Below, one piece after another: positions 22,276-62,096 of a stretch of 64,000 nucleotides of DNA. Position 1 is the first letter of the stretch. Each line of letters begins with the position of its first letter. The translations under genes and the position numbers were made by a program. The stretch covers positions 16,965,058 through 17,029,057 of the forward strand of contig NC_087081.1 in the NCBI RefSeq assembly GCF_026151205.1. The letters run 5' to 3'. Under the pieces are notes generated by a model. The model ran no database searches. It was not told the origin of the DNA and worked only from the letters and a program-made list of their open reading frames with translations. The DNA comes from Bolinopsis microptera (Eukaryota > Ctenophora > Tentaculata > Lobata > Bolinopsidae).

Positions 22276-22980
22276 TGAAGTGAGGCCGGGTAGTTTAAGT
22301 CTAAATATATTTTACCTCGTGGCTGCTTGATTTAACAAGTTAAAATGAGGTCGGGTAGTTAAAGTCTAAATATATTTTACCTCGTGGCTGCTTGATTTAA
22401 CAAGTAGGCCGGGTAGTTAAAGTCTAACTATATTTTACCTCGTGGCTGCTTGATTTAACAAGTAGGCCGGGTAGTTAAAGTCTAACTATATTTTACCTCG
22501 TGGCTGCTTGATTTAACAAGTTAAAATGAGGTCGGGTAGTTAAAGTCTAAATATATTTTACCTCGTGGCTGCTTGATTTAACAAGTAGTTTAAGTCTAAA
22601 TATATTTTACCTCGTGGCTGCTTGATTTAACAAGTAGGCCGGGTAGTTTAAGTCTAAATATATTTTACCTCGTGGCTGCTTGATTTAACAAGTAGGCCGG
22701 GTAGTTTAAGTCTAACTATGTTTTACCTCGTGGCTGCTTGAGGCCGGGTAGTTTAAGTCTAACTATGTTTTACCTCGTGGCTGCTTGATTTAACAAGTAG
22801 GCCGGGTAGTTTAAGTCTAACTATGTTTTACCTCGTGGCTGCTTGAGGCCGGGTAGTTTAAGTCTAACTATATTTTACCTCGTGGCTGCTTGATTTAACA
22901 AGTAGTTTGGCCGGGTAGTTTAAGTGTAAATATATTTTACCTCGTGGCTGCTTGATTTAACAAGTAGTTTTCCGGAGCTA
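22276..22980 (-). repeat. Splice-donor array at COPA exon 10
   Basis: About eleven copies of a 46-70 bp unit. On the minus strand each has TTAAATCAAGCAGCCACGAG followed directly by GTAAAATATA. That is the last part of COPA exon 10 (KSSSHE) plus its 5' splice site. The array therefore repeats exon end plus donor. Copies differ in whether they keep the start of the unit. Confidence 0.88.
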
Positions 22981-25900
22981 TCCAGAGCAGCGTACCTGTT
23001 TCGTGCTACCCAAACAGCGGTCACACCTTTCATTCTCTTACCTGCACGGTTTTCATTATTCATGCCTGGACATTTTACAAGATTATTCAGAAAACCAGGA
23101 TCTAGTAACTAGGGGGGGGGGGGGGGCGGGGGGGAGGGGGGCCGGGGGCCGGGGGCGGGGGGGGGGGGGGGGTTTTGGGGGATCAGGTACTAAGTATAAT
23201 ACCAGGAACTACTGTTTCTAAGTAAACTAAGCTTTAAACTTCAGAGTGGATCTAAGATTTATTTTCAGATATTTGGTACCTTTTACAATGGGTTTAAATA
23301 TGTTTGAACTTTAAACAAGTTTTAACAAGTTTCAATATTCGATATTGTATGTGTCTAAAGTACAGATTCCATATTCAGTGATCTAGAACAAGCATTAGCT
23401 TGGTGTTCATGTTATTAGAGGGTACGGGGAATTTTTGGGAACTTTTTTTGGATGACAACTTCTCTTGGATAAGGTCACGGTTTAGTTAGTAAAACGAGTA
23501 CCTTCACCCATCTGAACGTCATTTCTATCACCTCTATCCTTGCCTATCTGGTACACCTCGTAGTAGGTGGTGCCTGCATTCTTACTGCTGTTTACAGTGG
23601 ACACTATAATACTGCTCTCAGCGGGGTTGTAGGACAAACAGTTGGGCTGACAGTTGCTGTCTCCTGCAAATAGTGTGTGTTTATAGGTGTGTTTATAGGT
23701 GTGTTTATAGTGTGTTTATAGGTGTGTTTATAGGTGTGTTTATAGGTGTGTTTATAGGTTTATTTATAGGTGTGTTTATAGGTGAGTTTATAGGTGTGTT
23801 TAATGTTTATAGGTGTGTTTATAGGTGTGTTTATAGGTGTGTTTATAGGTGTGTTTATAGGTGTGTTTATAGGTGTGTTTATAGGTATAGCGGGTTGGAA
23901 ACAGGTCATAACAAGGATTATAAAAAGGTCTGTATAGTGTATCTACTGAGTACTGACCGTGTTTGAGCTGCAGTACAGCAACATCCTTGCCACTACCGAA
24001 GGTGTATTTTCTCAGGAACCTGTCCTTGATGAAGAAGACAGAGTTCTCGTGGACCACACTGGCTGGTCTCTCCCGCTCCAGCTTGAATATTATCATTCCG
24101 TTATCATGACCTGGACAAGAACTGGTAGTAATAACTAATATGGTATACACTGACAGTGCAGTGTAACACTGACAGTGCAGTGTAACGCTGACAGTGCAGT
24201 GTAACACTGACAGTGCAGTGTAACGCTGACAGTGCAGTGTAACGCTGACAGTGCAGTGTAACACTGACAGTGCAGTGTAACACTGACAGTGCAGTGTAAC
24301 GCTGACAGTGCAGTGTAACACTGACAGTGCAGTATAACACTGACAGTGCAGTAGTGTAACATTGTATACTATATAGGGAAGCTGTATTTATTTCCATGTA
24401 AACAACCGGGTACGGTTTAGCAAGTGAAATGTGAACTTGTCGTGTTAGTAGTCACTAGTCAGGTAACTACAGACTACTTAAGAGATGAAACCTGCAGCAA
24501 ATAAGTTGAGAGCAGGGTGAGCAGTTATACACCAGTATCTATCTTCTCCTCTGAAGGTATTTACACAGTTCCTCTTGTTCAGGTCCCACAATCTGGGAGT
24601 TTATCGTAATTAGGTGGGTTTAAAGTAATAGTTTGATATAATTTAATGACTTTTGTATGACTCCCCCTTATAAAATTTGGATTGGTTTACGCAGAATTAA
24701 TATAAGTTGAAAATATTATGTTAAAGCCGCTCTACATGAAAACAGCAGTACTATTAATCCTAATCTTGAAGTACTCACCTAATGCTCTTATCCTCGGAGT
24801 TAGAGATTATAATCTCATTTCTAGGATGGAAGATAACATTGCTGACATTGTTGTAATGCCCCCTGCACGTGTCCACCTCCCATGCGCGCGCCTCGTTAAA
24901 CCTCCACAACTTCACCTGTCTATCGTCCGCTCCTGGTGGGCTTATCTTAGCTTCACATTGTTAAATATCTCATTCCTATAGCATTTCTAGTTCGTTCTCT
25001 GACGAATGTTCCTGATCAGTGTGGGATATAATATCTATATATTATATAGATATATATTATAGTCTCTCTGAAGTGAGATATAGCCTCTTCCGACGGAGAA
25101 ACCCTGTATATTATATCAGACTAACAGAAATATAACTCAGCCTGCAACTTATTATGGTAACGATATAAATGGCCGCATTTCTGATGATAATTGTTTGAAA
25201 CATTTGTTTAAATCACGATTCTGTGAATTAGTAAGAGGAACTCTTCCTTAATGACAGGTATATAATATCGATATTTTAATGTTTCTGCACAATCCTACTA
25301 TATATAAAATATCCTCCTCTGATAATATGTTAAATGTGAGAATCACTCCTTTGTAAATATTCCTGTTAAATCTCCCAAAATCATCACTGTAAGCTCTGTC
25401 AGACGGAAACTTGTTTAACATAAATACCGTGAGATTCGGATGACGTTACAGAAAATTAAAATAATTACGAAGCCAAAAACTCCCATACTAATTGTTTCTG
25501 ACAAGTAAATAAGATACTACATATATAAGATACCAGATACGCTTCATTAGTTACAGGATACAATCTTCTTGACAGGAACTCAAAATTAGAAGCGCGCCCG
25601 ACCAGAGCAATATCACCATAGTAACCAGAGCAACTTAAAGTCATTACCCATAAGATCCGACCATTGGAACTAATTGAACGTGTACTGTGCTGACAGGTAG
25701 TAATATCGTCATGTGAACATGTGCAGAACTAACCACAAACTAACCTCTAACTAAGCACTAACTAACCTCTAACTAACCTCTAACTAACCTCTAACTAGCC
25801 TCTTACTAACCAGTAAGTAACCTCTAACTAGACTCTTACTAACCAGTAACTAACCACTTACTGCTGTTTATTACTTACATAATGTGAATAAAACTTGTGG

Positions 25901-28900
25901 AGTTTACAACCATTCAATTAATTTCCGATCGATACAAATGGGAATTACCTCTCTCCCCCTCTACAAAGTTGATTAACTTGCCGCTAACAATTAGAGGTTA
26001 AGTAGGACGAAAGTGGGCCCAGTTAACTTACCGCTAACAATTAGAGGTTGGGTAGGACGAAAGTGGGCCCAGTTAACTTACCGCTAACAAAGTAACAATT
26101 AGAGGTTGGGTAGGACGAAAGTGGGCCCAGTTAACTTACTGCTAACAATTAGAGGTTGGGTAGGATGGAAGTGGGCCCAGTTAACTTACCGCTAACAATT
26201 AGAGGTTGGGTAGGATGGAAGTGGGCCCAGTTAACTTACCGCTAACAATTAGAGGTTGGGTAGGACGAAAGTGGGCCCAGTTAACTTACCGCTAACAATT
26301 AGAGGTTGAGTAGGATGGAAGTGGGCCCAGTTAACTTACCGCTAACAATTAGAGGTTGGGTAGGACGAAAGTGGGCCCAGTTAACTTACCGCTAACAATT
26401 AGAGGTTGGGTAGGATAGAAGTGGGCCCAGTTAACTTACCGCTAACAATTAGAGGTTGGGTAGGATGGAAGTGGGCCCAGTTAACTTACTGCTAACAATT
26501 AGAGGTTGGGTAGGATGGAAGTGGGCCCAGTTAACTTACCGCTAACAATTAGAGGTTGGGTAGGATGGAAGTGGACCCAGTTAACTCCTCGGTCGTGTCC
26601 CTCCAGCACGTGCTTCACGAGCGCATCACTCTGTCCAAACAGATCTATCTGACCTGGTGTTTGGGTGCGAAATGTATCGGCTGAAATTATTACATTGAAT
26701 TCACTTAGTCACTAACATGTGACGTCACTTCAACCAGAGATAAGATTCACCACCATCTACTCGTAGACGACATAACAAACATTCTTACCAGATCATTCCA
26801 TGCCCATCATTAATCATCAATCAGGGGGGGTCCCCTCTCAATCAGTAATACAAATAATTACCGCTCCAGTTCTTGACAAAACACGGAAAATAACATTGAT
26901 TTTATCAACATGACAGAAAGCTGAATCTATGAGTTGATTGTATTGATATTAAATGACACGTTAGTGACTAACACGTGACTAACATGTGACTAACACGTGA
27001 CTAACTCACCTGACCCAGGCTGAGCTCTCTTCCTTCTCAGTCCGGTAATGTCCCAGACTCTTACTGTCTGGTCCAAACTAGCGGACACTACAAGGTCCTG
27101 TTTAGGGTGGAACTGCGCGCACATCACGTAGTGGTTATGTCCTGTTAGTACACTGAGAGTGGGGTTGTTAGATCTGGAGACAAACATGTCCTGTTAGTAC
27201 ACTGAGAGTTGGGTTGTTAGAGCTGGAGACAAACATGTCCTGTTAGTACACTGAGAGTGGGGTAGTTAGATCTGGAGACAAACATGTCCTGTTAGTACAC
27301 TGAGAGTGGGGTTGTTAGAGCTGGAGACAAACATGTCCTGTTAGTACACTGAGAGTTGGGTTGTTAGAGCTGGAGACAAACATGTCCTGTTAGTACACTG
27401 AGAGTTGGGTTGTTAGAGCTGGAGACAAACATGTCCTGTTAGTACACTGAGAGTTGGGTTGTTAGATCTGGAGACAAACATGTCCTGTTAGTACACTGAG
27501 AGTGGGGTTGTTAGAGCTGGAGACAAACATGTCCTGTTAGTACACTGAGAGTTGGGTTGTTAGATCTGGAGACAAACATGTCCTGTTAGTACACTGAGAG
27601 TGGGGTTGTTAGAGCTGGAGACAAACATGTCCTGTTAGTACACTGAGAGTTGGGTTGTTAGAGCTGGAGACAAACATGTCCTGTTAGTACACTGAGAGTT
27701 GGGTTGTTAGAGCTGGAGACAAACATGTCCTGTTAGTACACTGAGAGTTGGGTTGTTAGAGCTGGAGACAAACATGTCCTGTTAGTACACTGAGAGTTGG
27801 GTTGTTAGAGCTGGAGACAAACATGTCCTGTTAGTACACTGAGAGTGGGGTAGTTAGATCTGGAGACAAACATGTCCTGTTAGTACACTGAGAGTGGGGT
27901 TGTTAGAGCTGGAGACAAACATGTCCTGTTAGTACACTGAGAGTTGGGTTGTTAGAGCTGGAGACAAACATGTCCTGTTAGTACACTGAGAGTTGGGTTG
28001 TTAGAGCTGGAGACAAACATGTCCTGTTAGTACACTGAGAGTTGGGTTGTTAGAGCTGGAGACAAACATGTCCTGTTAGTACACTGAGAGTTGGGTTGTT
28101 AGAGCTGGAGACAAACATGTCCTGTTAGTACACTGAGAGTGGGGTAGTTAGATCTGGAGACAAACATGTCCTGTTAGTACACTGAGAGTGGGGTTGTTAG
28201 AGCTGGAGACAAACATGTCCTGTTAGTACACTGAGAGTTGGGTTGTTAGAGCTGGAGACAAACATGTCCTGTTAGTACACTGAGAGTGGGGTTGTTAGAT
28301 CTGGAGACAAACATGTCCTGTTAGTACACTGAGAGTTGGGTTGTTAGAGCTGGAGACAAACATGTCCTGTTAGTACACTGAGAGTGGGGTTGTTAGAGCT
28401 GGAGACAAACATGTCCTGTTAGTACACTGAGAGTTGGGTTGTTAGATCTGGAGACAAACATGTCCTGTTAGTACACTGAGAGTTGGGTTGTTAGAGCTGG
28501 AGACAAACATGTCCTGTTAGTACACTGAGAGTGGGGTTGTTAGAGCTGGAGACAAACATGTCCTGTTAGTACACTGAGAGTGGGGTTGTTAGAGCTGGAG
28601 ACACACATGTCCTGTTAGTACACTGAGAGTGGGGTTGTTAGAGCTGGAGACAAACATGTCCTGTTAGTACACTGAGAGTGGGGTTGTTAGAGCTGGAGAC
28701 ACACATGTCCTGTTAGTACACTGAGAGTTGGGTTGTTAGATCTGGAGACAAACATGTCCTGTTAGTACACTGAGAGTGGGGTTGTTAGAGCTGGAGACAA
28801 ACATGTCCTGTTAGTACACTGAGAGTTGGGTTGTTAGAGCTGGAGACAAACATGTCCTGTTAGTACACTGAGAGTTGGGTTGTTAGAGCTGGAGACAAAC

Positions 28901-31850
28901 ATGTCCTGTTAGTACACTGAGAGTGGGGTAGTTAGATCTGGAGACAAACATGTCCTGTTAGTACACTGAGAGTGGGGTTGTTAGAGCTGGAGACAAACAT
29001 GTCCTGTTAGTACACTGAGAGTTGGGTTGTTAGAGCTGGAGACAAACATGTCCTGTTAGTACACTGAGAGTTGGGTTGTTAGAGCTGGAGACAAACATGT
29101 CCTGTTAGTACACTGAGAGTTGGGTTGTTAGATCTGGAGACAAACATGTCCTGTTAGTACACTGAGAGTGGGGTTGTTAGAGCTGGAGACAAACATGTCC
29201 TGTTAGTACACTGAGAGTTGGGTTGTTAGATCTGGAGACAAACATGTCCTGTTAGTACACTGAGAGTGGGGTTGTTAGAGCTGGAGACAAACATGTCCTG
29301 TTAGTACACTGAGAGTTGGGTTGTTAGAGCTGGAGACAAACATGTCCTGTTAGTACACTGAGAGTTGGGTTGTTAGAGCTGGAGACAAACATGTCCTGTT
29401 AGTACACTGAGAGTTGGGTTGTTAGAGCTGGAGACAAACATGTCCTGTTAGTACACTGAGAGTTGGGTTGTTAGAGCTGGAGACAAACATGTCCTGTTAG
29501 TACACTGAGAGTGGGGTAGTTAGATCTGGAGACAAACATGTCCTGTTAGTACACTGAGAGTGGGGTTGTTAGAGCTGGAGACAAACATGTCCTGTTAGTA
29601 CACTGAGAGTTGGGTTGTTAGAGCTGGAGACAAACATGTCCTGTTAGTACACTGAGAGTTGGGTTGTTAGAGCTGGAGACAAACATGTCCTGTTAGTACA
29701 CTGAGAGTTGGGTTGTTAGAGCTGGAGACAAACATGTCCTGTTAGTACACTGAGAGTTGGGTTGTTAGAGCTGGAGACAAACATGTCCTGTTAGTACACT
29801 GAGAGTGGGGTAGTTAGATCTGGAGACAAACATGTCCTGTTAGTACACTGAGAGTGGGGTTGTTAGAGCTGGAGACAAACATGTCCTGTTAGTACACTGA
29901 GAGTTGGGTTGTTAGAGCTGGAGACAAACATGTCCTGTTAGTACACTGAGAGTGGGGTTGTTAGATCTGGAGACAAACATGTCCTGTTAGTACACTGAGA
30001 GTTGGGTTGTTAGAGCTGGAGACAAACATGTCCTGTTAGTACACTGAGAGTGGGGTTGTTAGAGCTGGAGACAAACATGTCCTGTTAGTACACTGAGAGT
30101 TGGGTTGTTAGATCTGGAGACAAACATGTCCTGTTAGTACACTGAGAGTTGGGTTGTTAGAGCTGGAGACAAACATGTCCTGTTAGTACACTGAGAGTGG
30201 GGTTGTTAGAGCTGGAGACAAACATGTCCTGTTAGTACACTGAGAGTGGGGTTGTTAGAGCTGGAGACACACATGTCCTGTTAGTACACTGAGAGTGGGG
30301 TTGTTAGAGCTGGAGACAAACATGTCCTGTTAGTACACTGAGAGTGGGGTTGTTAGAGCTGGAGACACACATGTCCTGTTAGTACACTGAGAGTTGGGTT
30401 GTTAGATCTGGAGACAAACATGTCCTGTTAGTACACTGAGAGTGGGGTTGTTAGAGCTGGAGACAAACATGTCCTGTTAGTACACTGAGAGTGGGGTTGT
30501 TAGAGCTGGAGACACACATGTCCTGTTAGTACACTGAGAGTTGGGTTGTTAGATCTGGAGACACACATGTCCTGTTAGTACACTGAGAGTGGGGTTGTTA
30601 GAGCTGGAGACACACATGTCCTGTTAGTACACTGAGAGTGGGGTTGTTAGAGCTGGAGACAAACATGTCCTGTTAGTACACTGAGAGTGGGGTTGTTAGA
30701 GCTGGAGACAAACATGTCCTGTTAGTACACTGAGAGTGGGGTTGTTAGATCTGCAGACAAACATGTCCTGTTAGTACACTGAGAGTGGGGTTGTTAGATC
30801 TGCAGACAAACATGTCCTGTTAGTACACTGAGAGTTGGGTTGTTAGAGCTGGAGACAAACATGTGTGTTAATATTTTACGTAATATTAATATTATTCTGT
30901 AAAAACACATTATATATTTGTTTCCTGGATCCCTAACATGTTTAACACTAACACAGGATTATAATCTACTATATAAACCCGGAATTACAGACACCTTACC
31001 TACCATTACTCACCTTGTACTAAATGTACATATATCATAATAAAAGGCTGTCAAAGTCCAGATACGAAACATTATACATTGCAGAAAACGGAGTAATTAA
31101 TTAATTAATTAATTAGTAATTAATAACTGAGTTAGTCTGTAAATAAGTTTTACAGGAGAAGTAAGTGATCTCTAACCTGATACAAGAGCGGCTCTGCCAG
31201 TTCCAGATCCTGATGGTCTGATCGTCAGAACAGCTCACTATCCAAGGGTGCTCGTCGTGGAAGAACGTGGTCCGAATGTAATCGAGGTGACCCAACATTG
31301 TGAACAGACATTTCCTTTGCTTGTAGTTCCAAACCTGCAGTGAAATGGTTTTAATTGGGTGAACAACTCCAGATGCATGAACGTGCTTTGAATGTCGAGG
31401 AATAAAATGAACCATTCAGTAAATGAATCTGGAAAAGATCACCAAATATGCTTGAACTCTTAATATCGTATAAAAGAACTAAGAAGAAGTAAACCTTGAT
31501 CTTGTAATCATCACCACCAGACACAAACAATGGTTGAGAGATGTGGAAGTGAACTCCTCTAACAGGACCGTCATGTTCGTCAAACTTCTCTATCAGGGTA
31601 CCCATCCTGTAGTCCCAGAGTTGGATTACTCCAGAGTGGAGCGAGGCTAGAACCCATGGTCGTGTTGTGTGGAATGATATTCCTGGTTGAAAGGAAACAT
31701 TTAGGTGGTGACTTTATCTGTGGACTTTCATTAACAAGTATTTAAAACTTCAAAATTTGGTCCTGAGAAAGCTTCATCACTAATCAAGTGTTTTTAAAAT
31801 TTCGTTTTACCTTTAACACGGGCAGACTTGGTCTTGAACTTGTCAAGCAT
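22941..31850 (-). CDS. COPA: Coatomer subunit alpha (alpha-COP), N-terminal WD40 part; 3' exons not found
   Basis: Ten exons: 31811-31850, 31495-31682, 31177-31334, 27010-27152, 26540-26653, 24779-24932, 24492-24592, 23958-24110, 23502-23663, 22941-23041. Frames join at every junction and give 438 residues, starting [14 protein letters not shown]. Alpha-COP is a large subunit of the COPI coat, which carries cargo from Golgi to ER; its N-terminal WD40 propeller binds dilysine signals. WD40 landmarks seen: [85 protein letters not shown]-like region at [13 protein letters not shown], and [13 protein letters not shown]. Alpha-COP is usually about 1,220 residues, so about 780 are missing. Four introns carry large arrays. 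Exon 4 could also start at 27173, adding seven residues, but 27152 matches the conserved length. Confidence 0.93.
23110..23175. repeat. G-rich low-complexity tract
   Basis: Almost pure G with a few C and A, in COPA intron 9. The reading is probably not exact in length. Confidence 0.75.
23673..23890. repeat. 12-bp tandem repeat (TGTTTATAGGTG)n in COPA intron 8
   Basis: About 18 copies. On the minus strand it reads (CACCTATAAACA)n and ends at the acceptor of COPA exon 9 (CACTATTTGCAG), so it makes up the 3' end of that intron. Confidence 0.9.
24147..24355. repeat. 19-bp tandem repeat in COPA intron 7
   Basis: Eleven copies of CACTGACAGTGCAGTGTAA and a CGCTGACAG variant. Each unit contains the partly self-complementary string CACTGACAGTG. 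The intron is otherwise short (24111-24491). Confidence 0.92.
24933..25980. other. COPA intron 5, left part: AT-rich, no exon seen
   Basis: AT-rich intronic sequence with a short AT palindrome near 25030-25055 (TATCTATATATTATATAGAT) and a CTAACTAACCT array at 25737-25860. No coding content was recognised. Confidence 0.6.
25737..25860. repeat. Degenerate 11-bp repeat (CTAACTAACCT)n
   Basis: About ten imperfect copies on the plus strand, inside the COPA intron between exons 6 and 5. Confidence 0.8.
25978..26582 (-). repeat. Splice-donor array at COPA exon 5 (50-bp unit, about 12 copies)
   Basis: On the minus strand each unit reads CACTTCCATCCTACCCAACC, then TCTAATTGTTAGCG, then GTAAGTTAACTGGGCC. 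That encodes [11 protein letters not shown] followed by a strong donor (G|GTAAGT). The first copy (26540) completes conserved COPA sequence ([17 protein letters not shown]). The others repeat exon end plus donor downstream. One unit has an eight-base insertion near 26090. Confidence 0.93.
26962..27006 (-). repeat. Donor-adjacent 11-bp repeat at COPA exon 4
   Basis: Directly after the exon 4 donor (minus strand AG|GTGAGTTAGTCAC) follow three to four copies of GTGTTAGTCAC, which resemble the donor sequence itself. A similar (CACGTGACTAACTGA)n repeat occurs at 47513-47550. Confidence 0.7.
27120..30865 (-). repeat. Splice-acceptor array at COPA exon 4 (49-bp unit, about 75 copies)
   Basis: On the minus strand each unit reads GTTTGTCTCCAG, then ATCTAACAACCCCACTCTCAG, then TGTACTAACAGGACAT. 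The second AG matches the expected exon 4 acceptor, since what follows encodes VLTGH of COPA. Each unit also has CTAAC and TACTAAC, both branch-point-like, and a second acceptor (CTCCAG). So every unit is a nearly complete 3' splice-site module plus about 16 bases of exon. Unit variants (GGGGTAG/GGGGTTG/TTGGGTTG; AGATCT/AGAGCT; ACAAAC/ACACAC) show a higher-order repeat of 34 units (1,666 bp). Confidence 0.95.
30866..31176. other. COPA intron 3, AT-rich part
   Basis: AT-rich intronic sequence with a (TTAA/AATT) tract at 31094-31125. No exon is seen. Confidence 0.6.
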
Positions 31851-39629: not shown

Positions 39630-39990
39630 GAGGTAGAGTAACCCCGGTAACCCCTATAATAACCCCGGCAACCCCGGTAACCCCTATAATAACCCCGGTA
39701 ACCCCTATAATAACCCCAGTAACCCCGGTAACCCCGGTAACCCCAGTAACCCCGGCAACCCCGGTATAGTAACCCCGGTAACCCGGGTTATAACCCCGGT
39801 AACCCCGGTAACCCCGGTAACCCCTATAATAACCCCAGTTACCCCGGTAACCCCGGTAACCCCAGTAACCCCAGTAACCCCGGTAACCCCGGCAACCCCG
39901 GTATAGTAACCCCGGTAACCCGGGCAATAACCCCGGTAACCCGGGTAATAACCCCGGTAACCCCGGTAACCCCGGTAACCCTACTACTAG
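39630..39990. repeat. Minisatellite of GTAACCCCG units overlapping the end of SIX1/2
   Basis: Units of 9 and 15-21 bp built from GTAACCCCG and CCTATAATAACCCC. On the minus strand the SIX1/2 reading frame enters this array and is read as repeats such as [11 protein letters not shown] and LPGLPGLLG before stopping at 39839. Confidence 0.9.
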
Positions 39991-42900
39991 GACCACGTGC
40001 AATCACTTCCACACGAACCTGATTATTGTTCATCCCATTTCCCCCGTGATCTGAGAGCTTCTGTCGCTTTGTTCTGCTGTTATCTGTATCCTCCATTATA
40101 CCCCTCTGATTATCTAGACTGGGCGTCTCCAGCTGCTGTTCGGGAGAAGTGACTATTCGCTGGGAGGATGACGTCATCAGAGGGGGTAGTGACGTCATAC
40201 CATGTGGTGACGTGTGGGTTGTCATGGGAACGTAAGGTGATTCTAAGACGGTGAACTGGGAATCGGAGGGAGCGTTTATTCGGGAGTTAGGTTCCACCTG
40301 GTGGGAAGTAATCTGAATAATTAATATTATATCTACACCTCATCAGTCAAGAAAGGTTGTTATCACTAGATATACTGTATAGTATACAGTATATCTAGTG
40401 GTAACAACATACACAGTGTATACTAGATACAGAGAAAGGAGAAATGTTCCTTTTCTTCCACTACCTTGATTTTAGTCTCCTCCTCTGGTAGGGACCCCTC
40501 ATCAGAGCTGTTGCGTGGTCTGCCGCTCCCTGGGTCTGAGCCGTCCCTGAAGGTTAGTTCTTATTTAGCTTCCTCTTATGATACTTATCACGAGATCTAA
40601 AGGTTCAATGGTATTATCTATGCTATCTGTTCATATCCTGTAGTGTAGTGTGTGTGTAGCCATACTACACACACACACTACACACTACTACACTACACAC
40701 TACACCTACCTCTCCTTGCTTTCTGCCGCCCTGTCTCTCTGTCTTCTGTTCTTAAACCAATTGCTGACCTGTTACAATTATTTAAACGTTATTAAATTGA
40801 ATATTTAATAACGATAAAAATTAAGGAAATATGTCGGCAGGTTGGACCACTATATATAGAGCTTACACACTAATAAATCAAGTTAAGTATATTCAAAAAG
40901 AAGTAAATATTTAAATTAAAGTAAATATTTAAAGCAAAGAAACCTACGTAAACGTTGCCTCACTTTGTAGGTTCGCCGCGTACGAGTGCGCGGCTGTATA
41001 CCACTAAGTGTAATGACAATGGGGGTCACGACGTGATACAACGAAAACTTTGTGCCTTGTGAAAGTGAAAGTGAAAGTGAAAGTAACCTGCGTTGTGGTG
41101 AGCCCAGTTCCCTCCGCTAATTCTCTCTTCTCCCGGGGGGACGGATAGGGGTTGTGCGCGTACCAGTCTCTAAGAACTGTTCTAGACTTTTCCTGGTGAT
41201 AAAATTGGAATTCTCTAAAGGAAACAAGTGATGATCATTTAGACTTACAACAGTGGGGATATAACAAAGCGAGGCACATATATATGAAATAAGAACAGTT
41301 CACGAAGAAACAAATAAGAAAGAGGAGTTACTAGTGTATACTGTATAGTATAGTCAGTGTAATAAGCGCCAAGCGCGAGCACAGAACTTTTTTCTCCGAT
41401 TTCGATAAATTTGGTACCAAAAGTTGTCTAAAAATGTGAATAAAATAAATTCACCGTGTAGCAATTTTCGGAAAAAATGCTACACGGCGCTTGTTCGCCG
41501 CGCGTGCTTTTTTCGCGCAAATTTTTAGTTTTTGGCCTATAACTTTCACATTTTAAATTATTATCGCATAGTTATTATGGTATCGTAATCAGCTCATCGA
41601 GATGAAACTTTTAGTAATAATATTTTAAGATTTAAAGGAATTTTTTTTTCAAAAGTTTTTAATCTGAACACAAGGGTCCCCCCTTGTGTAAAATTTTGAA
41701 CAAATTTTCGAAAAATTTGGTGCTTGAAATATTATAATTTTGGTACCAAAAGTTGCGTCTGATTAAGCTCATTACGATTCTGTAAGAATTATTTCAAAAT
41801 ATTCAATATTTTAGGAGTTATAGGCATTTTAAGCAATAGATTAACCATTTTTCGTCCATAGTACACTTTTGCAATGCACAGGAGGCCCACATACATCTCA
41901 ACGAATCGTGCTACACGGTGAATTTTCATTATTCACAGTTAAAGGCAACTTTTGGTACCAAATTTATCAAAATCAGAGACAAAAAATTCTGTGCCAACTC
42001 ATGGCGCTTATTACATAGACTAGTATACCCTAGGAGGTACCTTGAAGCAGTAGCTAGTTTCGTCACCATCCCATATTGTTCTAGGAAGAGGGAACTTTTT
42101 CCGGACACGATATTTTCCCACAGCTCCCAGGGACCTGATTTATAGAAAATAATGTGTTTTGTGTTTTTATAGAGTAGAGAGTATAAAGAGGCATACGGCA
42201 AAACATCTAATACTGTTCAAACCATATCTCTAAGAAAACCTTATCTCTTTTCCTTATGCTACCGTTTAGAGATAACGTACCTTCCCCTCAGTTTCTCTGC
42301 CTCCATGTAATGTGCTTTTAACCAAATGTTTTGTAGTTTGGGATGACTAGAGGGACTGAAGTTGTTGTTCTCCAATATCCGATACAGTTCCTGATAAAAC
42401 AGAGAATAACAATCTGTTGCTAGCTAACAGAGAATAGTTATTAAATAAACAACAGACTATTCACGGTTCTCATTACCAAACGTTAATGTTTTCCCCTTCG
42501 GAAGCAGGAAAGTGAATAGTTAAATATTGTGTTCATTTTCCTTTCAGTCCCACAACAACCCACACACCTTGAAGTTTCCTCTGTGAAAGGCGACCACTGC
42601 TTTAGCCTTTAGAACACTCTCGTTCTTGTGTAGATGATCACAGGCAGGCAGGGACCAGAGAAACCGTGCTAGTCTCTCCATACTGCCACCCTGAGACAGA
42701 ACCTGAAATGTTAACATTAGTTAACATTAGTTAACATTAGTTAACATTAGTTAACATTAGTTAACATTAGTTAACATTAGTTAACATTAGTTAACATTAG
42801 TTAACATTAGTTAACATTAGTTAACATTAGTTAACATTAGTTAACATTAGTTAACATTAGTTAACATTAGTTAACATTAGTTAACATTAGTTAACATAAG

Positions 42901-45900
42901 TGTTAACATAGTGATACAGTTGCCATGGTATCACAGTGTAATAGTGATACAGTTGCCATGGTATCACAGTGTAATAGTGATACAGTTGCCATGGTATCAC
43001 AGAGTAATAGTGATACAGTTGCTATGGTATCACAGTGTAATAGTGATACAGTTGCCATGGTATCACAGAGTAATAGTGATACAGTTGCTATGGTATCACA
43101 GTGTAATAGTGATACAGTTGCCATGGTATCAGTGTAATAGTGATACAGTTGCCATGGTATCACAGTGTAATAGTGATACAGTTGCCATGGTATCACAGAG
43201 TAATAGTGATACAGTTGCTATGGTATCACAGTGTAATAGTGATACAGTTGCCATGGTATCACAGTGTAATAGTGATACAGTTACCATGGTATCACAGTGT
43301 AATAGTGATACGTTTGCAGAAAGAGATGGGATCTAGGAAGTGTGTCTGCAAAGTAAGCGTATCAAATGTGGGATACACCTCACAACACACCGCAACACAC
43401 GCAATATTGCACTTTACTTCTCATCTCTTGTTTTTACTGCTTCTTTAAAATGACTTGTTGGGTCGGAGCAACGCTACTTATATTATCTATCAACATTGCT
43501 TCAGGTAAAGAAGTATTTTAACACTACAATATTTCTAATGTTGTATTTCATAAAAACTCTGCCAGAAACTATGAATGTTTGTGATCACTTTTAACAAATG
43601 AACCCTTTGTTTTCAGGCACTGAACTAGTTTATGAGATCACTTTTAACAAATGGACCCTTATTTTCAGGCACTGAACTAGTTTATGTGATCACTTTTAAC
43701 AAATGGACCCTTTGTTTTCAGGCACTGAACTAGTTTATGTGATCACTTTTAACAAATGAACCCTTATTTTCAGGCACTGAACTAGTTTATGAGATCACTT
43801 TTAACAAATGAACCCTTATTTTCAGGCACTGAACTAGTTTATGTGATCACTTTTAACAAATGAACCCTTTGTTTTCAGGCACTGAACTAGTTTATGAGAT
43901 CACTTTTAACAAATGAACCCTTATTTTCAGGCACTGAACTAGTTTATGTGATCACTTTTAACAAATGAACCCTTATTTTCAGGCACTGAACTAGTTTATG
44001 TGATCACTTTTAACAAATGAACCCTTATTTTCAGGCACTGAACTAGTTTATGAGACGATAGTGTTCGGGGACCCAGAACTTTGGGGAGATGAGGGTAGTG
44101 AAGCTTACAAAGACTACCCAGCGTACACTCTGGAGGAGGAGGATGTGACTGGTAAGCTGGTGGCCAGGCTGCCCGCTGCTAATGATGTGTTCTTCAAAGA
44201 CAACGAGAAGTTATTGAAGTTCAAGACAAACAATAATCCGAATATTAACATTTGGTTCAGGAGATCTAGCGATCATGAGCCAAGATCGCACATCCAATGG
44301 AGGTATTTAATAAATAAGCAGTGGAAACGGATCTATCATATATGTATAATATCATAATTCCCTTTTACAATTATCTTCCATATCACTTAAACTATTGGCA
44401 TTAAAGATTCCAGGTTTTTAAAACCTTCATATTTCATATAATTGTCTCAATGACTCCTCTATTTCAGTCCCGCGAATTACAAAGTCTCGGTATCAGGTTG
44501 TACTGATGATGAAGCGGATGATGATTCAGCGCATCGTCCTGCAATGACCAACGTTCCATCTGCAACGGCAAAAGTGTGGACACTCACAAAAAAAGAAGGA
44601 CATCTGACGATAGTCTGCAACAACATAGTAGTATTAGATTGGAGTACCCCAGAAAGTCCCCCAGATGAGGATTTGTGTAAACAATTAGGTTCAACATCCT
44701 TTAAGGTGTGGTTCCTGAAGAATAAGAACTGGAACACAGGTACCATGGCATTTGCAGGATCAGACTACGAGCTGTTACAGTACGGAGCCATGGCAGTGCA
44801 CCTCGGAGAAGCTGTGTTGTTATGTCAGGTCCTCCTGCCACTAGCAGGAGGAGATGATGTAAACTACGATACTGTGGGGGAGAACCCCAAGTGGACACTT
44901 CTACCTTCAGCTCAAATAACATCTACACCTGCTGAGTCCATAGCAGGCTTCACGGCCGCCTTCGACAAGGACACAAACAAGTTCACTTTAACTGTGAAGG
45001 AGTCACCAGACTTCAGCACCAACTGGAAGTGCGAGTTTCAGTTATCAAAAGGAGCTGGAAGTGCAACAACAGTTACAAGTACTGCCGATATCACGGTGGT
45101 AGGCATGACAATGAGTAAGCCCTGGATACTGGACGCTACTGATCTGATAGTAGTGTGTGTGATCGGTAATGGAGCAGCAGCAGTGAGTGATGTCTCCTTC
45201 ACGTGGGGGGAGGCAGTGTACACTTCACAAACAGCACTAGCTGCAGGACTGAAGATGGTAGTGAACGCGGGCAACATTGCGGAGAACACACGGACCCTCA
45301 CACTGGACATACCTAAGAGTAGAGTGAGTATTGACATGGAGACAGCCTTCAAGTGCAGTGCTAAAGTAGATGATGCCATTACAGTAGAAGCAAGTGGAAC
45401 AGCAGGAGTGTTAGCGTACATAGTGCAGCCTGTAAGTAGTGCGGCAGTGGAGACGATGGAGCACCAGATAAACTGTACAATAGCAGCTAATAGTGAGGAG
45501 GGGACTGTGGAATGGTATAGAGAGGTTAGAGATACAGCCACTACTCCTGCTCAATATACCTTCACACAATACGGAAAATTCCCAAACACTGTCCCAAAAA
45601 CGGACCACAATTCCAAGATCACGTTCAGCTCTATAGCTATCGGGGACGAGGGGTTCTACTCCTGCAACATAACCTACAAGAAAACAGGAACCTTCCCCGG
45701 GGGCAGCATTATATCAGACACAGCAGCCGTTACAGTCATCCAGCCCGGTACTCTCAACATCTGCGTGATAAAGCACTGCGACGCTCCAGACGTGAACTGT
45801 ACTGGCCAGTTCTACGACATAACCACACCTGCACCTAAACCATGTACCTACCAGATCTCTCTAGAGAAGGGGAACAACAGGTTAGTGATACTAGGTACTC

Positions 45901-48900
45901 CTGTGTAATTGTGACGTCATAACACGTGGTGTGACGTCATAACACGTGTATATATGCAGACTAAAGTATGCTTAAGTAAGTAATTAGATTAAATTGATTA
46001 TGTAAGTAATTAATTAACTTACATTAACAACAGGAAGACTACCACCACGTGCGAGGAACCCTCTAAAGGGTGTGCTATCACTGCCACCCAGCTCACGGAG
46101 GCTACTGTTAATGTTACTGGAGCTGCTAGCTCTGTAGACAGCAAGGGGGCTAGTTTATCTACACTACGTGGTGTGGGAAACAAGGTTATCTTTACACTTG
46201 ATAAGATGGTGGACCCGTCAAGTAAATCAAAAAGAACGGAGGGTGAAGGAACGACAGAGTACATCCCAAACTACCAGAACAAGATTTATGTGACATGTCC
46301 AGATTCTGCAAGTACTGAGGACGCCTGTAAGATTGTTACTAAGAATGGTTCTTACAGCGAGTACTACTGTACCGGTCCCTACTGTTCTGTGGATTATCAG
46401 TCCACTCAGATACAATCCTACGACAAGGTAAACTGCACGGGGGTGTTCTGTTCTATCAAAGATACCAAGAGCAAAGGAAACAACTACCAGTGCAGTGGTA
46501 ACAACTGCTCCATCACATCAGAAGAGAGTCACTCCAGTAACTACTACGTAGCAATAGGCTCTCTGGAGGCCAAGATAACCGCCACCAAGGGACAGGATCT
46601 AGAGATACAGACATACGGAGATAACAACCACACACTGATAACAATAACAGATAGTCTGTACTCTGATGGGTTATGCAGGGGCGCCTTCTGTAATGTTACC
46701 ATTACTGACAGTGAGAACTCCAGACCTACTTGTATAGGATACAACTGTACTGCTTACGGTAAGCGAGTGACAGCTGGGAACTTAGCACTGAAGATAAAGT
46801 GTGAGGGAGAGCTGTGTTTAGCTAAGTGTGACAACAGTAACAATTGCACGGTGTACTGTAAGGGTCCCAAGTGTATTGCTAAATGCTACAACAACACACT
46901 GTGCCAGGCTATCTGTGAGGGAGAGGAATGCCAGGCTAGCTGCAGGGAGGCGGCTGGGGGCCGGTGTGAGAGGTCTCTGCATCTCCCTAAGAAGTCGCTC
47001 TGTCAGAACTGTCTGCATGCGCCTAGTATCTGGGACTGGTCAGTGTGCCGCGCTAGTGAGACAGAGTGTATGAACTGTTACACTGCTCACTGGGACCTGC
47101 TGGGGCTGAACTTGTATAGATTGGGGTGCCTGGATAATCAGACAGAGAGTGACGTGTGCGGGGTTAACCAGTTTATAAAAGCTTGCTATGTGTATACCTG
47201 CCAGGATGATCTCTGTACTCTTAAGAAGATGAAGGAACTGATAAACCCTGTGAGCACAACAGCGCGCGCTCACACTCTCACACACATGGGCGCTAGCTTT
47301 ATTATAGTGGTTCTACTTTACTTGTTTAGTGTTTGAATATAATAGTGTCTGATGTAAAGGAATGTGAAGTGTGAACCTGTTTTGAAAATGTTTATTCTAA
47401 ATGAATATACTCTGGTCATGTTGACGAATGACACACGAGACAAAAGTTCATATGTTGACCAATAAGAACGGCATATGACAGAGATATCAGCCACTTTGTA
47501 TAAAGAAGTGACTAACTGACACGTGACTAACTGACACGTGACTAACTGACACGATGCACCTGTTAACTTGGCTTATAAACCTTGTGAAATCCATATAAAT
47601 ACAATTTTGCAGTTATTTTTTAAGGTCACTAACTAAATAACTATAGGGTTAAAATATAAATTAAATGAGCCACCTGTGATAGCATGCCATTGATGGGTTC
47701 ACTGATAGAGTACTCCGAGCACCTGCTCGGTCATGTGCTATGCCGTATCACGTGACATCACGGGGTCACGTGGTTCCACCTTAGTCAGCCACCAGGTGCT
47801 TTGCTACCGAAATATTAAAATAGCGTATCGAATTCCGGCAAAACACCTACACTCGCCCGATTAACATATGCCAGCTGTGCAGCGCTAATAACCCCCGCTG
47901 GACCAATCACAGAGCGAGAAATAGCGCACGTGATCTCCAAATATGGTCATGTGACGGAGGTTGGCGGGGTGGATGAGGGTATCAAGTGGCAGGGGCCTCT
48001 CTAAAGAGTGTATTGTGTGGCGCTTGTGCACCCTCGGCCGAGATAAAATGTCAGATTTGTGGAAGACAATCCAGGGGATGAAAATAATATGGGAGGGTAA
48101 AGGGAGGTAGCGTTACAGGAGGGAAGACAAGCCGTTCTACTGTTACTGGAGATGGGGAGGCGGTGTTACTGGAGAGACAACTCCATAACACCATGCCCGG
48201 TCATTTGGTGCAGGCTGTTCTTGCAGCCCGCTTCTTGCACTCCCATTCTTGCACTCCCATTCTTGCACTCCCACTCTTGCAATTTCTTATACCCAAATTT
48301 GTAAAGTTTCTTGGAGAGTTTTCTTACAGTCAAATTCTTGTCGTTTCTCAAAAAGGTTTATGTAAGAGTGGACCTAATTTCAGTGGACTTTTAGCTTAAA
48401 ACCGTAGAACACAGTATTCGTAACATTTGAGCAGACTATTAGTAACAGAGGCTATTAGATTTAGAAAACATTTTGAAATACAATTATATGAAGACTGATC
48501 GCCCTAAAGGAAGCTCCTCATTTCTTAATAACAATAAATATACCCTAACCAGTAAACATTTACTGATTAGCTCAGAACAGCATATCAGGACTGGGAGAGA
48601 TCTAAAACTAAAAGTAGAATAACGGTATCAAACTTAGAGACTTAACGAAGGGGCGGGGGATAGTTAGTTTTATTTTCGAGTACCAGTGTCCACATAACCC
48701 ATGTGTACTGGACACTGTCCAGTACACATGGGTTATGCCGTTGATGGAACTTTATACCTGGAAATTCTGAATCCTTCATCTCGCCACAATAAAATTGCAT
48801 TTCCCTATGGTATATTTTCAGTATTTGCTAATAATTATTCCGCGTTGTCAATAACCATGTGTACTGGACACTGGTATCTCTCTTATCAGTATCTCTAGTC

Positions 48901-53512: not shown

Positions 53513-53518
53513 TCTTAA

Positions 53519-55475: not shown

Positions 55476-56138
55476 TTATGAGTCATCAATCTCGTTCCAT
55501 TCGTGAAACTGGTCAGCAATCAGAGACTCGATGTTAGCAACGCTGAGAGGATCAGAGTGACGTGACAGGTCGTCACCCTCACCCTCAACATGTGACAGGT
55601 CGTCACCATCACCCTCTACACGTGACATATCGTCACCCTCCACACGTGTCATACCCTCCACACCCTCTCCCTCACTCTCGTCACCTGGTGGCTCCCCCGT
55701 TAACACCGTCCTCAACATGGCGTTCCTCTTCCTCAGCATCATTACCTCCTCCTGTATTGTTACACTTGTCAACTAACAACACCACTGTATTGTTACACTT
55801 GTCAACTAACAACAGAGAAATTAAAAAGTTAATTATTGTTTAATGGGATATCTAAAAGTGTATTAAATAAGGAGTAAACTAAAAGTAAAATGTGTGATCT
55901 AAAATGTGACCTGGAGATTGGAGATGGTAAAGTTGAGAACCATAGTTTCCTCCCTGAACCGGACCTCTAGTTCCTCAACCTGGCCTGTCAGAGCCCGTCT
56001 CTCTCCCCTGCTCCGCTCCAGCTCCCGGTTTAGCTGGGTGATCTGGTTACTGTGACACTTGTTCTGCAGCTTCAGCAGATTGTACTTCGTCTCCAGAAGT
56101 TCGGCTTTGTTAGCACTTTCTAGGTCCTCGTGTAACAC
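55476..56138 (-). CDS. Coiled-coil protein, last two exons
   Basis: Exons 55911-56138 and 55476-55751, phase 0 at both ends; 167 residues to a stop. The first begins VLHEDLESANKAELLETKYN and continues with heptad-like LNRELERSRGERRALTGQVE, a coiled coil of about 65 residues. The second begins EEVMMLRKRNAMLRTVLTGE and then becomes acidic with three repeats around VEGDGDDLSHVEGEGDDLS. The end (LIADQFHEWNEIDDS) is acidic. The upstream exons are not located, since the region is filled by the acceptor array. The protein is not recognised; many cytoskeletal or centrosomal coiled-coil proteins look like this. Confidence 0.72.
55750..55815 (-). repeat. Duplicated acceptor of the last coiled-coil exon
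   Basis: Two copies of a 33-bp unit which on the minus strand reads GTTGTTAGTTGACAAGTGTA then ACAATACAG. The second copy ends at the acceptor of the exon starting at 55751. Confidence 0.85.
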
Positions 56139-58152
56139 CTGGCCAGGAGTGTTATTCAGGGGGGGGGGGGGGTGTAACACCTGGCCGGGGGTGTTATTCA
56201 GGGGGGGGGGGTGTAACACCTGGCCGGGAGTGTTATTCAGGGTGGGGGGGGGGGGGTGTAGCACCTGGCCGGGGGTGTTATTCAGGGGGGGGGGGGGGGG
56301 TAACACCTGGCCGGGAGTGTTATTCAGGGGGGGGGTGTAACACCTGGCCGGGAGTGTTATTCAGGGTGGGGGGGGGGGGGGGGTGTAGCACCTGGCCGGG
56401 GGTGTTATTCAGGGGGGGGGGGGGGGTAACACCTGGCCGGGAGTGTTATTAAGGTGGGGGAGGGGTGTGACACCTGGCCGGGAGTGTTATTCAGGGGGGG
56501 TGTAACACCTGGCCGGGAGTGTTATTCAGGGTGGGGGGGGGGGGGGTGTGACACCTGGCCGGGAGTGTTATTCAGGGGGGGGGGGGGGGTAACACCTGGC
56601 CGGGAGTGTTATTAAGGTGGGGGGAGAGGTGTAACACCTGGCCGGGAGTGTTATTCAGGGGGGGTGTAACACCTGGCCGGGAGTGTTATTCAGGGTGGGG
56701 GGGGGGGGGGGGGGTGTGACACCTGGCCGGGAGTGTTATTCAGGGGGGGGGGGTAACACCTGGCCGGGAGTGTTATTAAGGTGGGGGGAGGGGTGTAACA
56801 CCTGGCCGGGAGTGTTATTCAGGGGGGGGGGTGTAACACCTGGCCGGGAGTGTTATTCAGGGGGGGTGTAACACCTGGCCGGGAGTGTTATTCAGGGGGG
56901 GTAACACCTGGCCGGGAGTGTTATTCAGGGTGGGGGGGGGGGGGGGGTAACACCTGGCCGGGAGTGTTATTCAGGGGGGGGGTAACACATGGCCGGGAGT
57001 GTTATTCAGGGGGGGGGGGGTGTAACACCTGGCCGGGAGTGTTATTCAGGGGTGGGGGGGAGTGTTATTCAAGGTGGGGGGAGTGTAACACCTGGCCGGG
57101 AGTGTTATTCAGGGTGGGGGGGTGTAACACCTGGCCGGGAGTGTTATTCAGGGGGGGGGGGGGTGTAACACATGGCCGGGAGTGTTATTCAGGGTGGGGG
57201 GGGGGGGTAACACCTGGCCGGGAGTGTTATTAAGGTGGGGGGGTGTAACACCTGACCGGGAGTGTTATTCAGGGTGGGGAGTGTAACACCTGGCCGGGAG
57301 TGTTATTCAGGGGGGGGGTGTAACACCTGGCCGGGAGTGTTATTCAGGGGGGGGGGGTGTAACACCTGGCCGGGAGTGTTATTCAGGGGGGGGGGGAGTG
57401 TAACACCTGGCCGGGAGTGTTATTCAGGGTGGGGGGTTGTAACACCTGGCCGGGAGTGTTATTCAGGGTGGGGTGGGGGGGGGGGAGTGTAACACCTGGC
57501 CGGGAGTGTTATTCAGGGTGGGGGGTTGTAACACCTGGCCGGGAGTGTTATTCAGGGGGGGGGGGGGGGGTGTAACACCTGGCCGGGAGTGTTATTAAGG
57601 TGGGGGGGGGGTGTAACACCTAGCCGGGAGTGTTATTCAGGGTGGGGGGTGTAACACCTGGCCGGGAGTGTTATTCAGGGGGGGGGGTAACACCTGGCCG
57701 GGAGTGTTATTCACGGGGGGGGGGTGTAACACCTGGCCGGGAGTGTTATTCAGGAGGGGGGGGGGGGTAACACCTGGCCGGGAGTGTTATTAAGGTGGGG
57801 GGAGTGTAACACCTGGCCGGGAGTGTTATTCAGGAGGGGGGGGGGGGTAACAACTGGCCGGGAGTGTTATTCAGGAGGGGGGGGGGGTAACACCTGGCCG
57901 GGAGTGTTATTCAGGAGGGGGGGTAACACCTGGCCGGGAGTGTTATTCAGGAGGGGGGGGGTAACACCTGGCCGGGAGTGTTATTAAGGTGGGGGGGGGT
58001 AACACCTGGCCGGGAGTGTTATTCAGGGGGGGGGGGGTAACACCTGGCCGGGAGTGTTATTCAGGGGGGGGGGGGTAACACCTGGCCGGGAGTGTTATTA
58101 AGGTGGGGGTGTAACACCTGGCCGGGAGTGTTATTCAGGAGGGGGGGGGGTA
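56128..58152 (-). repeat. Splice-acceptor array of the coiled-coil gene (about 36-45 bp unit, dozens of copies)
   Basis: On the minus strand the unit is (C)n tract, TGAATAACACTCCCGGCCAG, then GTGTTACAC. The copy next to the exon has CTCCTGGCCAG|GTGTTACACGAGG, where GTGTTACAC encodes VLH at the exon start. So each unit holds a pyrimidine tract, acceptor AG and nine exon bases. The C/G runs vary from six to about 20 bases, giving several open frames on the plus strand that are not genes. Confidence 0.94.
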
Positions 58153-59317: not shown

Positions 59318-60055
59318 CTGAAGTCCAGGAATTGGTAAGGGGGTCGTTAATTCCTTCGTCGTAGTCCTTCTTCAGTCCGTTCTCCCGTACCCATCTCAGC
59401 TGTTCGTCCCCGGATGAAGACGGCCTTCTCAGGAAGAGTTAAGTAATAACTGTTACTCAGCATATTGTAGATAGTTGTGAAGAGGAGTAGGAATCGAATG
59501 TGATATACTAAACTAAATTCTCTGTGACATTTATACTGCACTATCGAAATCACTAACAAGAACCGCTATGCGATGGGATCTGATCTGGAACATACCCTGT
59601 CACTAGACTGAACATGAGATACCCTTAGTAGGTGCTAAAGTGTCACGCGATGAGATCCTCATTCCTAAATGATCTGCTTGAGTGCACGTACTTGGTCGGT
59701 ATTTCGCTTAGCGAAATCACATCGACCAGTTCATAATTATACCTCTTTATCAAAGAATCTTTTTGCATTTTAGAGTAGCATCAGGATATTTCAGTCAAAT
59801 GGAAGAAGTTTATACCGAACAATTGTCTAACGTATCTAAAAATTACAATATGATATGATGTATAATATAAATAATCTAGGACAATTTTCTGCTTCAACAA
59901 CTCCATGAATTATTCTAATCTCACCCTTTCATATGTCAACTGCTCGTTATACTCTAATCTGACAGAGCGCCTCTCTACAGTCCATCTCAACTGATTTGTC
60001 TAACCTTGCTCAACAAAATACTGTAGGTTACACCTTGTCCTAACACAGAGAATTA

Positions 60056-60340
60056 AGTTATTATTGTTAATGGGATATTAAAAGTTATTAAATAAGGAGT
60101 ACTAACAGTCAAAATTGTGATCTAAATGGGGCCTTTGGAGATTGGTGGTAAAGTTGGGTTCCATTAGTTTCCTCCCTGGACCGGCCCTCCAGGTCCTACT
60201 GGCCAGTCGCATAGCCAGTCCCCCCTCTACCGCTCCAGCCCGGTTTGTGGTGATGGTTCTGGAACTTTTCTGCAGCTTAGCAGATTGTACTTTTCGAAAT
60301 GGCTTAGGACTTCTAGTTGTTGAAACATGCCAGAGTGCTT
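60056..60340 (-). pseudogene. Degraded duplicate of the coiled-coil exon (55911-56138)
   Basis: Segments TAATGGGATATTAAAAG, TTAAATAAGGAGTA, GTTTCCTCCCTGGACCGG and GCAGATTGTACTT align in order with 55840-56100 of the intact copy, with many small deletions and substitutions. The frame is broken, so it cannot encode the coiled coil. Single-base deletions dominate. Confidence 0.8.
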
Positions 60341-61015
60341 TTAGGGTGGGGGGGGGTAGGGGGGGATGTAACATGTCCATTATTTTGTAAATGGAAGGAG
60401 TATTTCAGGGGTGTGGGGTGTATCATGGCTGAGTGTTAATTCAGGGTAGGGGGGGGGTGATTAACATTGGACGGTTTATCAGGGGTAGTTGAACACAGGC
60501 CAGTGTTATTCAGTGGAATGGTTGTTTAAAACTGGGGGTTATTCAGGGAGGTGCGGGGCGATATGTGAAACACCCAATGATTATTAAAGGTTATCGAGTT
60601 GGTTGTAACAGGGTTCACTGTTATTTGGAGGGGGGGGTCATGGCGAGTGTTTCAGGGTTTACGGTGTGTACGGGGGGGTATACACTGGCCGGATTGTTAT
60701 TCATGTGAACATCATGCAGTTTTTTCATTTGATATACACCTGGCCCGGGAAGTTTATTTCATGAATGGTGCTGGGTATGTTGGGATTAAACTGGGGAATT
60801 GATGTCAGTAGGGAGGGGAATAGTGATAAACTGGGGACTGTACTAGGGGGGCAGACAATTCGTTCAATTAACCATGCCGAGTTTTATTCATTTTCGGTGG
60901 CTAAATGGAGAAAATGGCCCAGTGAATTATTCAGAGGGTGGGAATTCATGGCCTGAAGTGTTTTGGTGGCCACATTCTCCAGTAGTCCATTTATGCAGGG
61001 GGGGTGACCCCCCGG
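60341..61015 (-). repeat. Degraded part of the coiled-coil acceptor array
   Basis: Recognisable but broken units (GAGTATTTCAGGGGTG, CCAGTGTTATTCAGTGG, ACACTGGCCGGATTGTTATT) continue from the degraded exon toward the clean array. Confidence 0.75.
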
Positions 61016-61016
61016 G

Positions 61017-61056
<40 letters not shown>

Positions 61057-62096
61057 AACACCTGGCCGGGAGTGTTATTCAGGGTGGGGGGGTGTAACAC
61101 CTGGCCGGGAGTGTTATTCAGGGTGGGGGGGTGTAACACCTGGCCGGGAGTGTTATTCAGGGGTGGGGGGTTGTAACACCTGGCCGGGAGTGTTATTCAG
61201 GGTGGGGGGTGTAACACCTGGCCGGGAGTGTTATTCAGGGTTGGGGGGGTGTAACACCTGGCCGGGAGTGTTATTCAGGGTGGGGGGAGTGTAACACCTG
61301 GCCGGGAGTGTTATTCAGGGTGGGGGGAGTGTAACACCTGGCCGGGAGTGTTATTCAGGGTGGGGGGAGTGTAACACCTGGCCGGGAGTGTTATCCAGGT
61401 GTGTAACACCTGGCCGGGAGTGTATTCAAGGGGTGTAACACCTGGCCGGGAGTGTTATTCAGGTGGGGAGTGTAACACCTGGCCGGGAGTGTTATTAAGG
61501 GTGGGGGAGTGTAACACCTGGCCGGGAGTGTTATTAAGGGTGGGGGGAGTGTAACACCTGGCCGGGAGTGTTATTAAGGGTGGGGGAGTGTAACACCTGG
61601 CCGGGAGTGTTATTAAGGGTGGGGGGAGTGTAACACCTGGCCGGGAGTGTTATTCAGGGTGGGGGGAGTGTAACACCTGGCCGGGAGTGTTATTAAGGGT
61701 GGGGGGAGTGTAACACCTGGCCGGGAGTGTTATTAAGGATGGGGGGTGTAACACCTGGCCGGGAGTGTTATTAAGGGTGGGGGGAGTGTAACACCTGGCC
61801 GGGAGTGTTATTCAGGGTGGGGGGAGTGTAACACCTGGCCGGGAGTGTTATTAAGGGTGGGGGGAGTGTAACACCTGGCCGGGAGTGTTATTCAGGGGGG
61901 GGGGAGTGTAACACCTGGCCGGGAGTGTTATTAAGGATGGGGGGTGTAACACCTGGCCGGGAGTGTTATTAAGGGTGGGGGGAGTGTAACACCTGGCCGG
62001 GAGTGTTATTCAGGGGGGTAACACCTGGCCGGGAGTGTTATTCAGGGTGGGGGGGAGTGTAACACCTGGCCGGGAGTGTTATTCAGGATTCCCGCA
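61016..62096 (-). repeat. Second clean copy of the acceptor array, about 27 units
   Basis: Starts with a G run (61020-61055), then units of GTAACACCTGGCCGGGAGTG plus TTATTCAGGGTGGGGGGA, mostly more regular than the first array. It ends at TTATTCAGGATTCCCGC (62096). Confidence 0.93.

Follow-up and report, generated by a model that had tools for sequence, protein, structure and literature searches.

The stretch analysed here, 64,000 nucleotides of contig NC_087081.1 of the ctenophore Bolinopsis microptera (assembly GCF_026151205.1, positions 16,965,058 to 17,029,057 of the forward strand; hereafter the window), contains a coatomer alpha gene (COPA), an immunoglobulin (Ig)-like gene and a coiled-coil gene in which minisatellite arrays repeat a splice site together with adjoining exon bases, as well as a SIX gene with arrays close to its exons. 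The repeat unit holds an exon-intron border with bases from both of its sides in five independent arrays of the window and in seven arrays of an independent sample of introns. Arrays of the window were listed by Tandem Repeats Finder, and exon borders were placed by reading the DNA on the coding strands. Positions given below are those of the window.

The borders of COPA may be taken as firm, because the joined exons align to coatomer alpha chains. Nine exons on the minus strand, numbered 2 to 10 on the assumption that one further exon lies upstream, occupy 31682-31495, 31334-31177, 27152-27010, 26680-26540, 24932-24779, 24592-24492, 24110-23958, 23663-23502 and 23041-22941. Joined at GT-AG borders (22941..31682), they give one frame with 0 stops, as compared with 28 and 33 stops in the other two frames. 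Residues 1-431 of the 433 encoded align to residues 15-441 of coatomer alpha chains (E 9.7e-207), and the exon 4 acceptor and the exon 5 donor both lie in ungapped stretches of that alignment. Three arrays on the minus strand include authentic borders of this gene. The exon 4 acceptor array (27137..30864; 76 copies of a 49-bp unit) has a unit composed of a branch-point-like TCTAAC, the acceptor CTCTCAG and up to 16 exon nucleotides, and the authentic acceptor is its final copy in the sense of the gene. The unit of the exon 5 donor array (25973..26586; 50 bp, 12 copies) is largely exonic, with 47 exon nucleotides (a 6-nt overlap included) followed by GTAAGTTAA, and in the exon 10 donor array (22281..22970; about 58 bp, variable in length, 12 copies) 30 exon nucleotides are followed by GTAAAATATA...; in both, the authentic donor is copy 1. 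An 11-bp array (26964..27005, minus strand) starts 4-5 nt into the intron that follows exon 4, whose donor lies at 27010/27009, and thus excludes the border. A 51-bp array of 26 copies (20943-22280) abuts the exon 10 donor array and has the segment CCTCATTTTAAC in common with some of its copies, as if either of the two had arisen from the other.

In the Ig-like and coiled-coil genes the borders were placed by frame and GT/AG only. The Ig-like gene yielded one Pfam V-set match (27 bits against a cut-off of 26), the sole match to reach its Pfam cut-off among the 10 open reading frames of the window that were scanned. Its exon 2, which begins at 44035 on the plus strand, is preceded by a short exon 1 that reads as a signal peptide and by an acceptor array (43580..44052; 52-bp unit, 9 copies) whose unit consists of TTTTAACAAATG...TTTTCAG and 18 exon nucleotides. 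When a paralogue without the array was sought, the sole match of exon 2 was exon 2 itself. The acceptor array of the coiled-coil gene (56130..58152, minus strand; exon 56138-55911) has a C-rich unit of about 38-42 bp with 52 border copies, and the unit includes 9 exon nucleotides (GTGTTACAC). At the next acceptor of this gene, a duplication of two 33-bp copies (55752..55814, minus strand) ends exactly at the exon (55751) and includes no exon base. The unit of the acceptor array recurs in a second array on the minus strand (61042..62087; 95.5% identity over 67 bp), and 3' of this, in the sense of the gene, lies a damaged copy of the coiled-coil exon and intron (about 60340-60040) that is identical at 251 of 319 alignment columns and differs by 25 deletion events, 4 insertion events and 24 substitutions. 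The second array is not an independent case; it is part of an error-rich duplicate of the coiled-coil locus. The damage at 60.0-62.1 kb, in which indels predominate, resembles unpolished reads more than it does old divergence; the copy may instead be a genuine decayed duplicate.

The SIX gene has Pfam matches to SIX1_SD and the homeodomain. A 10-bp TAATGTTAAC array (42710..42901, minus strand) ends 7 nt upstream of the exon at 42702, which is the SIX1_SD match, and contains no exon base. In the 3' region of the gene, the reading frame stays open into an array of a 9-bp GTTACCGGG-type unit (39638..39981, minus strand), and the donor border could not be placed there. The initial annotation had listed eight arrays ("at least seven") as repeating a splice site with exon bases. 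Five of them, the three of COPA, that of the Ig-like gene and the first of the coiled-coil gene, are independent and as described; one of its two coiled-coil acceptors belongs to the damaged copy, and neither the exon 2 acceptor nor the exon 3 donor that it assigned to SIX1/2 could be retained.

An independent sample of introns was obtained from Pfam exon hits of eight conserved families, among which the kinase search yielded few introns. Adjacent hits (model gaps from -16 to +13, wider by one on either side than fixed beforehand) bracketed 210 introns, of which 178 with confident borders were kept (113 in sample 1, 65 in sample 2; median lengths 226 and 199 bp) and 32 were discarded on frame or score (15 of 128 and 17 of 82, respectively). 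For sample 2 only 170 bp around each intron were taken, so that more distant copies would be missed. Near-identical gene copies (L007/L008, L009/L010 and L073/L074) were retained, and none of them has a border-spanning array, defined here as an array with at least 8 exon bases inside. Such arrays account for 7 of the 79 found and occur in 7 of the 178 introns, on four chromosomes. Arrays as a whole are concentrated in introns (79 per 87,184 intron bases, as opposed to 3 per 58,341 bases of exon hits), and about 16% of the sampled intron bases lie within them.

The twelve border-holding arrays of window and sample comprise 8 at donors and 4 at acceptors. In all ten arrays with at least 8 copies the authentic site is the terminal, exon-adjacent copy, the first at donors and the last at acceptors. 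Only two of the 12 nominal unit lengths (33 and 21 bp) are multiples of 3. Overlaps between the ends of the duplicated segment were 4 (COPA exon 4), 6 (COPA exon 5), 0-3 (COPA exon 10; 7 by eye) and -5 to 1 (coiled-coil gene) in the window, and 0 (L016), 1 (L023 donor), -2 to 0 (L023 acceptor), 3 (L026), 1 (L027), 1 (L030) and 4-7 (L071) in the sample; a microhomology signature at the array ends was rejected, as the overlaps are too mixed.

Minisatellite-like duplications of intron-exon borders have a name. They are described as mirages in the globin and Adh3 genes of amphioxus, where splicing appears undisturbed, length is unstable and a model of intron gain was suggested by them (PMC3087553); a later report adds TnC and the similar but imperfect case of PGBD5 (PMC3902484). 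As in Adh3, BflGb6/BflGb9 and TnC, the ctenophore repeats span the border at a donor or an acceptor and keep the AG or GT in many copies, and their anatomy fits that of mirages. The hosts differ, a lancelet there and a ctenophore here, as do copy numbers (6 and 3 units in the two haplotypes of BflGb6, as many as 76 copies in the window); in amphioxus both splicing and the instability of array length have been studied, whereas the ctenophore arrays are known from the sequence of one assembly. The statement of the initial annotation that no named class exists is thus superseded by the amphioxus cases in Adh3, globin and TnC genes, to which PGBD5 has been likened. In the Rogers model of intron gain by duplication of an AGGT proto-splice site, as presented in PMC3087553, a tandem duplication likewise carries a splice site, but it creates a new intron within the exon, whereas the present copies belong to an intron that already existed and leave the exon as it was.

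Ordinary intronic minisatellites overlap with the present arrays in unit length and copy number and differ from them in that the unit here has exon bases and a complete splice site. Introners, which are mobile intron elements, consist of near-identical units dispersed over many loci. No such dispersal was found: among 70 minisatellite arrays in 344 kb there were seven pairs that share a unit, four inside one sampled locus, two inside the window and one between two genes. Units are therefore mostly private, which favours birth from local sequence. A literature search on mirages, minisatellites and exon-intron border tandem repeats, covering titles and the beginnings of abstracts, retrieved none reported for ctenophores. 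The repetition of splice borders is genuine and falls into a named class, for which the only reports that we found concern lancelets.

The arrays are probably mirages in the plain sense of minisatellites whose founding tandem duplication chanced to straddle a splice border. A duplication of about 20-65 bp with 0-7 bp of end overlap would have joined the end of the exon to the start of the intron, and slippage or unequal exchange would then have expanded it. The anatomy shows that the copy nearest to the body of the exon retains the original site and that the extra copies land in the intron; exon definition and proximity would still select the original site. Since that site remains nearest to the exon, border arrays would be tolerated: selection would mostly remove duplications within exons, and those that straddle a border would be as harmless as intronic ones. 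Several percent of introns with a repeated border would need no targeting, given the many introns of only 100-250 bp and the high frequency of minisatellites. The likeliest mechanism is accordingly a neutral one, in which tandem duplications arise often in a genome that has short introns and many minisatellites. For comparison, tandem repeats are reported to make up 13% of the genome of another ctenophore, Hormiphora.

Whether the number of border-spanning arrays exceeds chance depends on the null that is used. The formula fixed beforehand (array density × unit length × number of borders) gives 7.9 expected against 7 observed (P 0.68), and the same formula matched to the 8-nt criterion gives 3.3 (P 0.05). 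The remaining nulls and subsets were chosen after that first formula. With introns capped at 200 bp, an ancestral length made realistic by the observed medians, 5.5 are expected (P 0.29), or 3.1 among arrays with at least three copies (P 0.17). Chance is a fair explanation of the border-spanning count, because the expectation varies in this way with the null, and the assertion of the initial annotation that chance would not place borders inside units so often is not established by 7 of 79 sampled arrays against expectations of 7.9, 3.3, 3.25 and 5.5.

Several results weigh against a founding duplication placed by chance, and most of them also speak for its nearest rival, in which tandem duplication would be locally more frequent owing to the sequence of splice sites (AGGTAAGT-like donors, pyrimidine-rich acceptors) or to co-transcriptional structures such as R-loops. 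When founding units were placed uniformly in introns shrunk to one unit per array, 3.25 border-spanning arrays were expected against the 7 observed (P 0.018; rate ratio 2.15, interval 0.87-4.4), and among the 30 arrays with at least three copies 5 span a border against 1.52 expected (P 0.007). Arrays across a border or within 10 nt of it number 18 against 10.9 expected (P 0.011). The five independent cases of the window exceed the rate of the sample, although they are the reason for which the window was chosen, and arrays occupy more of it (25.7% of bases) than of the sample (11.8%). Six of the seven sample cases lie in kinesin genes (6 of 53 introns, compared with 1 of 125 others; Fisher P 0.003), a clustering that plain chance does not predict. 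Throughout the genome, the tandem donor word AGGTAAGT-N15-45-AGGTAAGT is matched 1655 times and its reversal 39 times; the single word occurs 19 times against 10 in 344 kb of gene-rich loci. Among the matches listed on contig C1, the tandem word falls at 13 places, a few large arrays dominate and two of the places have the same unit. Donor-bearing arrays thus exist at a large scale; the excess per array is uncertain, and the word matches do not imply used splice sites. The suggestion in the initial annotation that sequence bias favours slippage receives a hint from these word counts.

Targeting of junctions is nonetheless unlikely, on balance, as the origin of the arrays. The excess on which it draws disappears under the formula fixed beforehand and with ancestral introns of at most 200 bp, and among the word matches listed a few large arrays predominate. 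Moreover, of the 356 borders only 8 (7 of 226 in sample 1 and 1 of 130 in sample 2) have a 30-mer of 15 exon and 15 intron nucleotides that recurs close by, as compared with 809 of 4484 intron-interior 30-mers (641 of 3130 and 168 of 1354); this comparison speaks against a preference for junctions, though long arrays inflate the interior rate. A wider form of the idea, in which splice junctions would be birth hotspots of minisatellites in ctenophores by way of co-transcriptional DNA damage or slippage at donors and the genome would hold thousands of intact decoy arrays, paralleling lancelets, we regard as slightly more doubtful again. It is far less probable that the copies are functional decoys, retained to tune splicing by, for example, slowing it or causing intron retention. 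The GT/AG core is intact in 297 of 301 copies over the 12 arrays, authentic copies included, and core mismatch lies below the mean of the unit in all ten arrays with at least 8 copies (Wilcoxon P 0.002). Copies were identified by their likeness to the border, however, and the alignment was anchored on it, which favours the core; the sum leaves out one spurious L027 match 4 kb off and the L021 pair, in which one extra partial copy 158 nt away was scored as a repeated border and not as an array. Circularly shifted windows of the same units do equally well (Fisher P 0.49), so that maintenance of decoys is not demonstrated, and recent expansion accounts for the identity of the copies. With so few unit lengths that are multiples of 3, most decoys, if used, would shift the frame. 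Equally improbable is an artefact of assembly, by which misassembly or gap filling would have made or lengthened the arrays. Gaps of the B. microptera assembly are stated to have been closed with TGS-GapCloser (PMC10232365, in a passage that does not specify the type of PacBio reads used for this species), and the damaged copy at 60.0-62.1 kb has an indel-dominated error pattern; the COPA arrays, on the other hand, are flanked by intact exons, and border arrays turn up again in the sample, in 7 of its 178 introns and on four chromosomes.

Some further observations concern the kinesin genes and the other sampled loci. The kinesin genes account for 13 of the 19 larger intronic arrays of the sample in addition to six of the seven border-spanning ones (loci L016, L023, L026, L027 and L030). 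In the kinesin gene L021, arrays in two introns have a 21-bp unit in common (100% identity over 41 bp), as if copied from intron to intron. The near-identical kinesin copies L007 and L008, 87 kb apart, were considered as a pair with and without a mirage array and rejected, the difference between them being an insertion. This insertion, of about 930 bp (L007, about 1041-1971), is bounded by inverted ends and contains 11-bp TTAAGACAACA-type arrays; it is fold-back-like and brings minisatellites along. At L034, adjacent myosin-head matches (C3:9154012-9154203 and 9154255-9154485) cover model positions 105-167 and 102-167, as mutually exclusive exons would. Genome-wide, a word of four TTAGGG units is matched 2242 times in forward and 2031 times in reverse orientation, and the first of the places listed for it on C1 are interior ones.

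Other repeats of the window were noted as well. In a gene that by eye is zinc-finger-like, the intron at 14900-18088 contains a compound GTAACCAG array (15564-16296), the longer unit of which has a 33-nt stretch between AG and GT (GTGTGGGG...CAGATCAG), possibly a repeated micro-exon. Two adjoining 18-bp arrays (63198-63456 and 63527-63708) have frames open on both strands (245 aa on the plus and 190 aa on the minus strand) and are possibly coding minisatellites. A 20-bp unit of TGACGTCA and CACGTG, which we take to be two transcription-factor-like motifs, occurs at 10262-10350, 19650-19770, 45910-45948 and about 62250-62287, in small arrays apart from one another and, in one case, as a short piece, in the manner of a dispersed minisatellite.

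Ctenophores are a lineage argued to be sister to all other animals. If the sampled rate holds, mirages would be extended from lancelets to ctenophores. Should the proportion of 7 in 178 introns hold genome-wide, B. microptera would supply many natural introns in which 2 to 76 near-identical splice sites compete, so that the parts played by proximity and exon definition in the choice of a site could be tested directly, and whether splice borders are hotspots of duplication could be decided with existing data.

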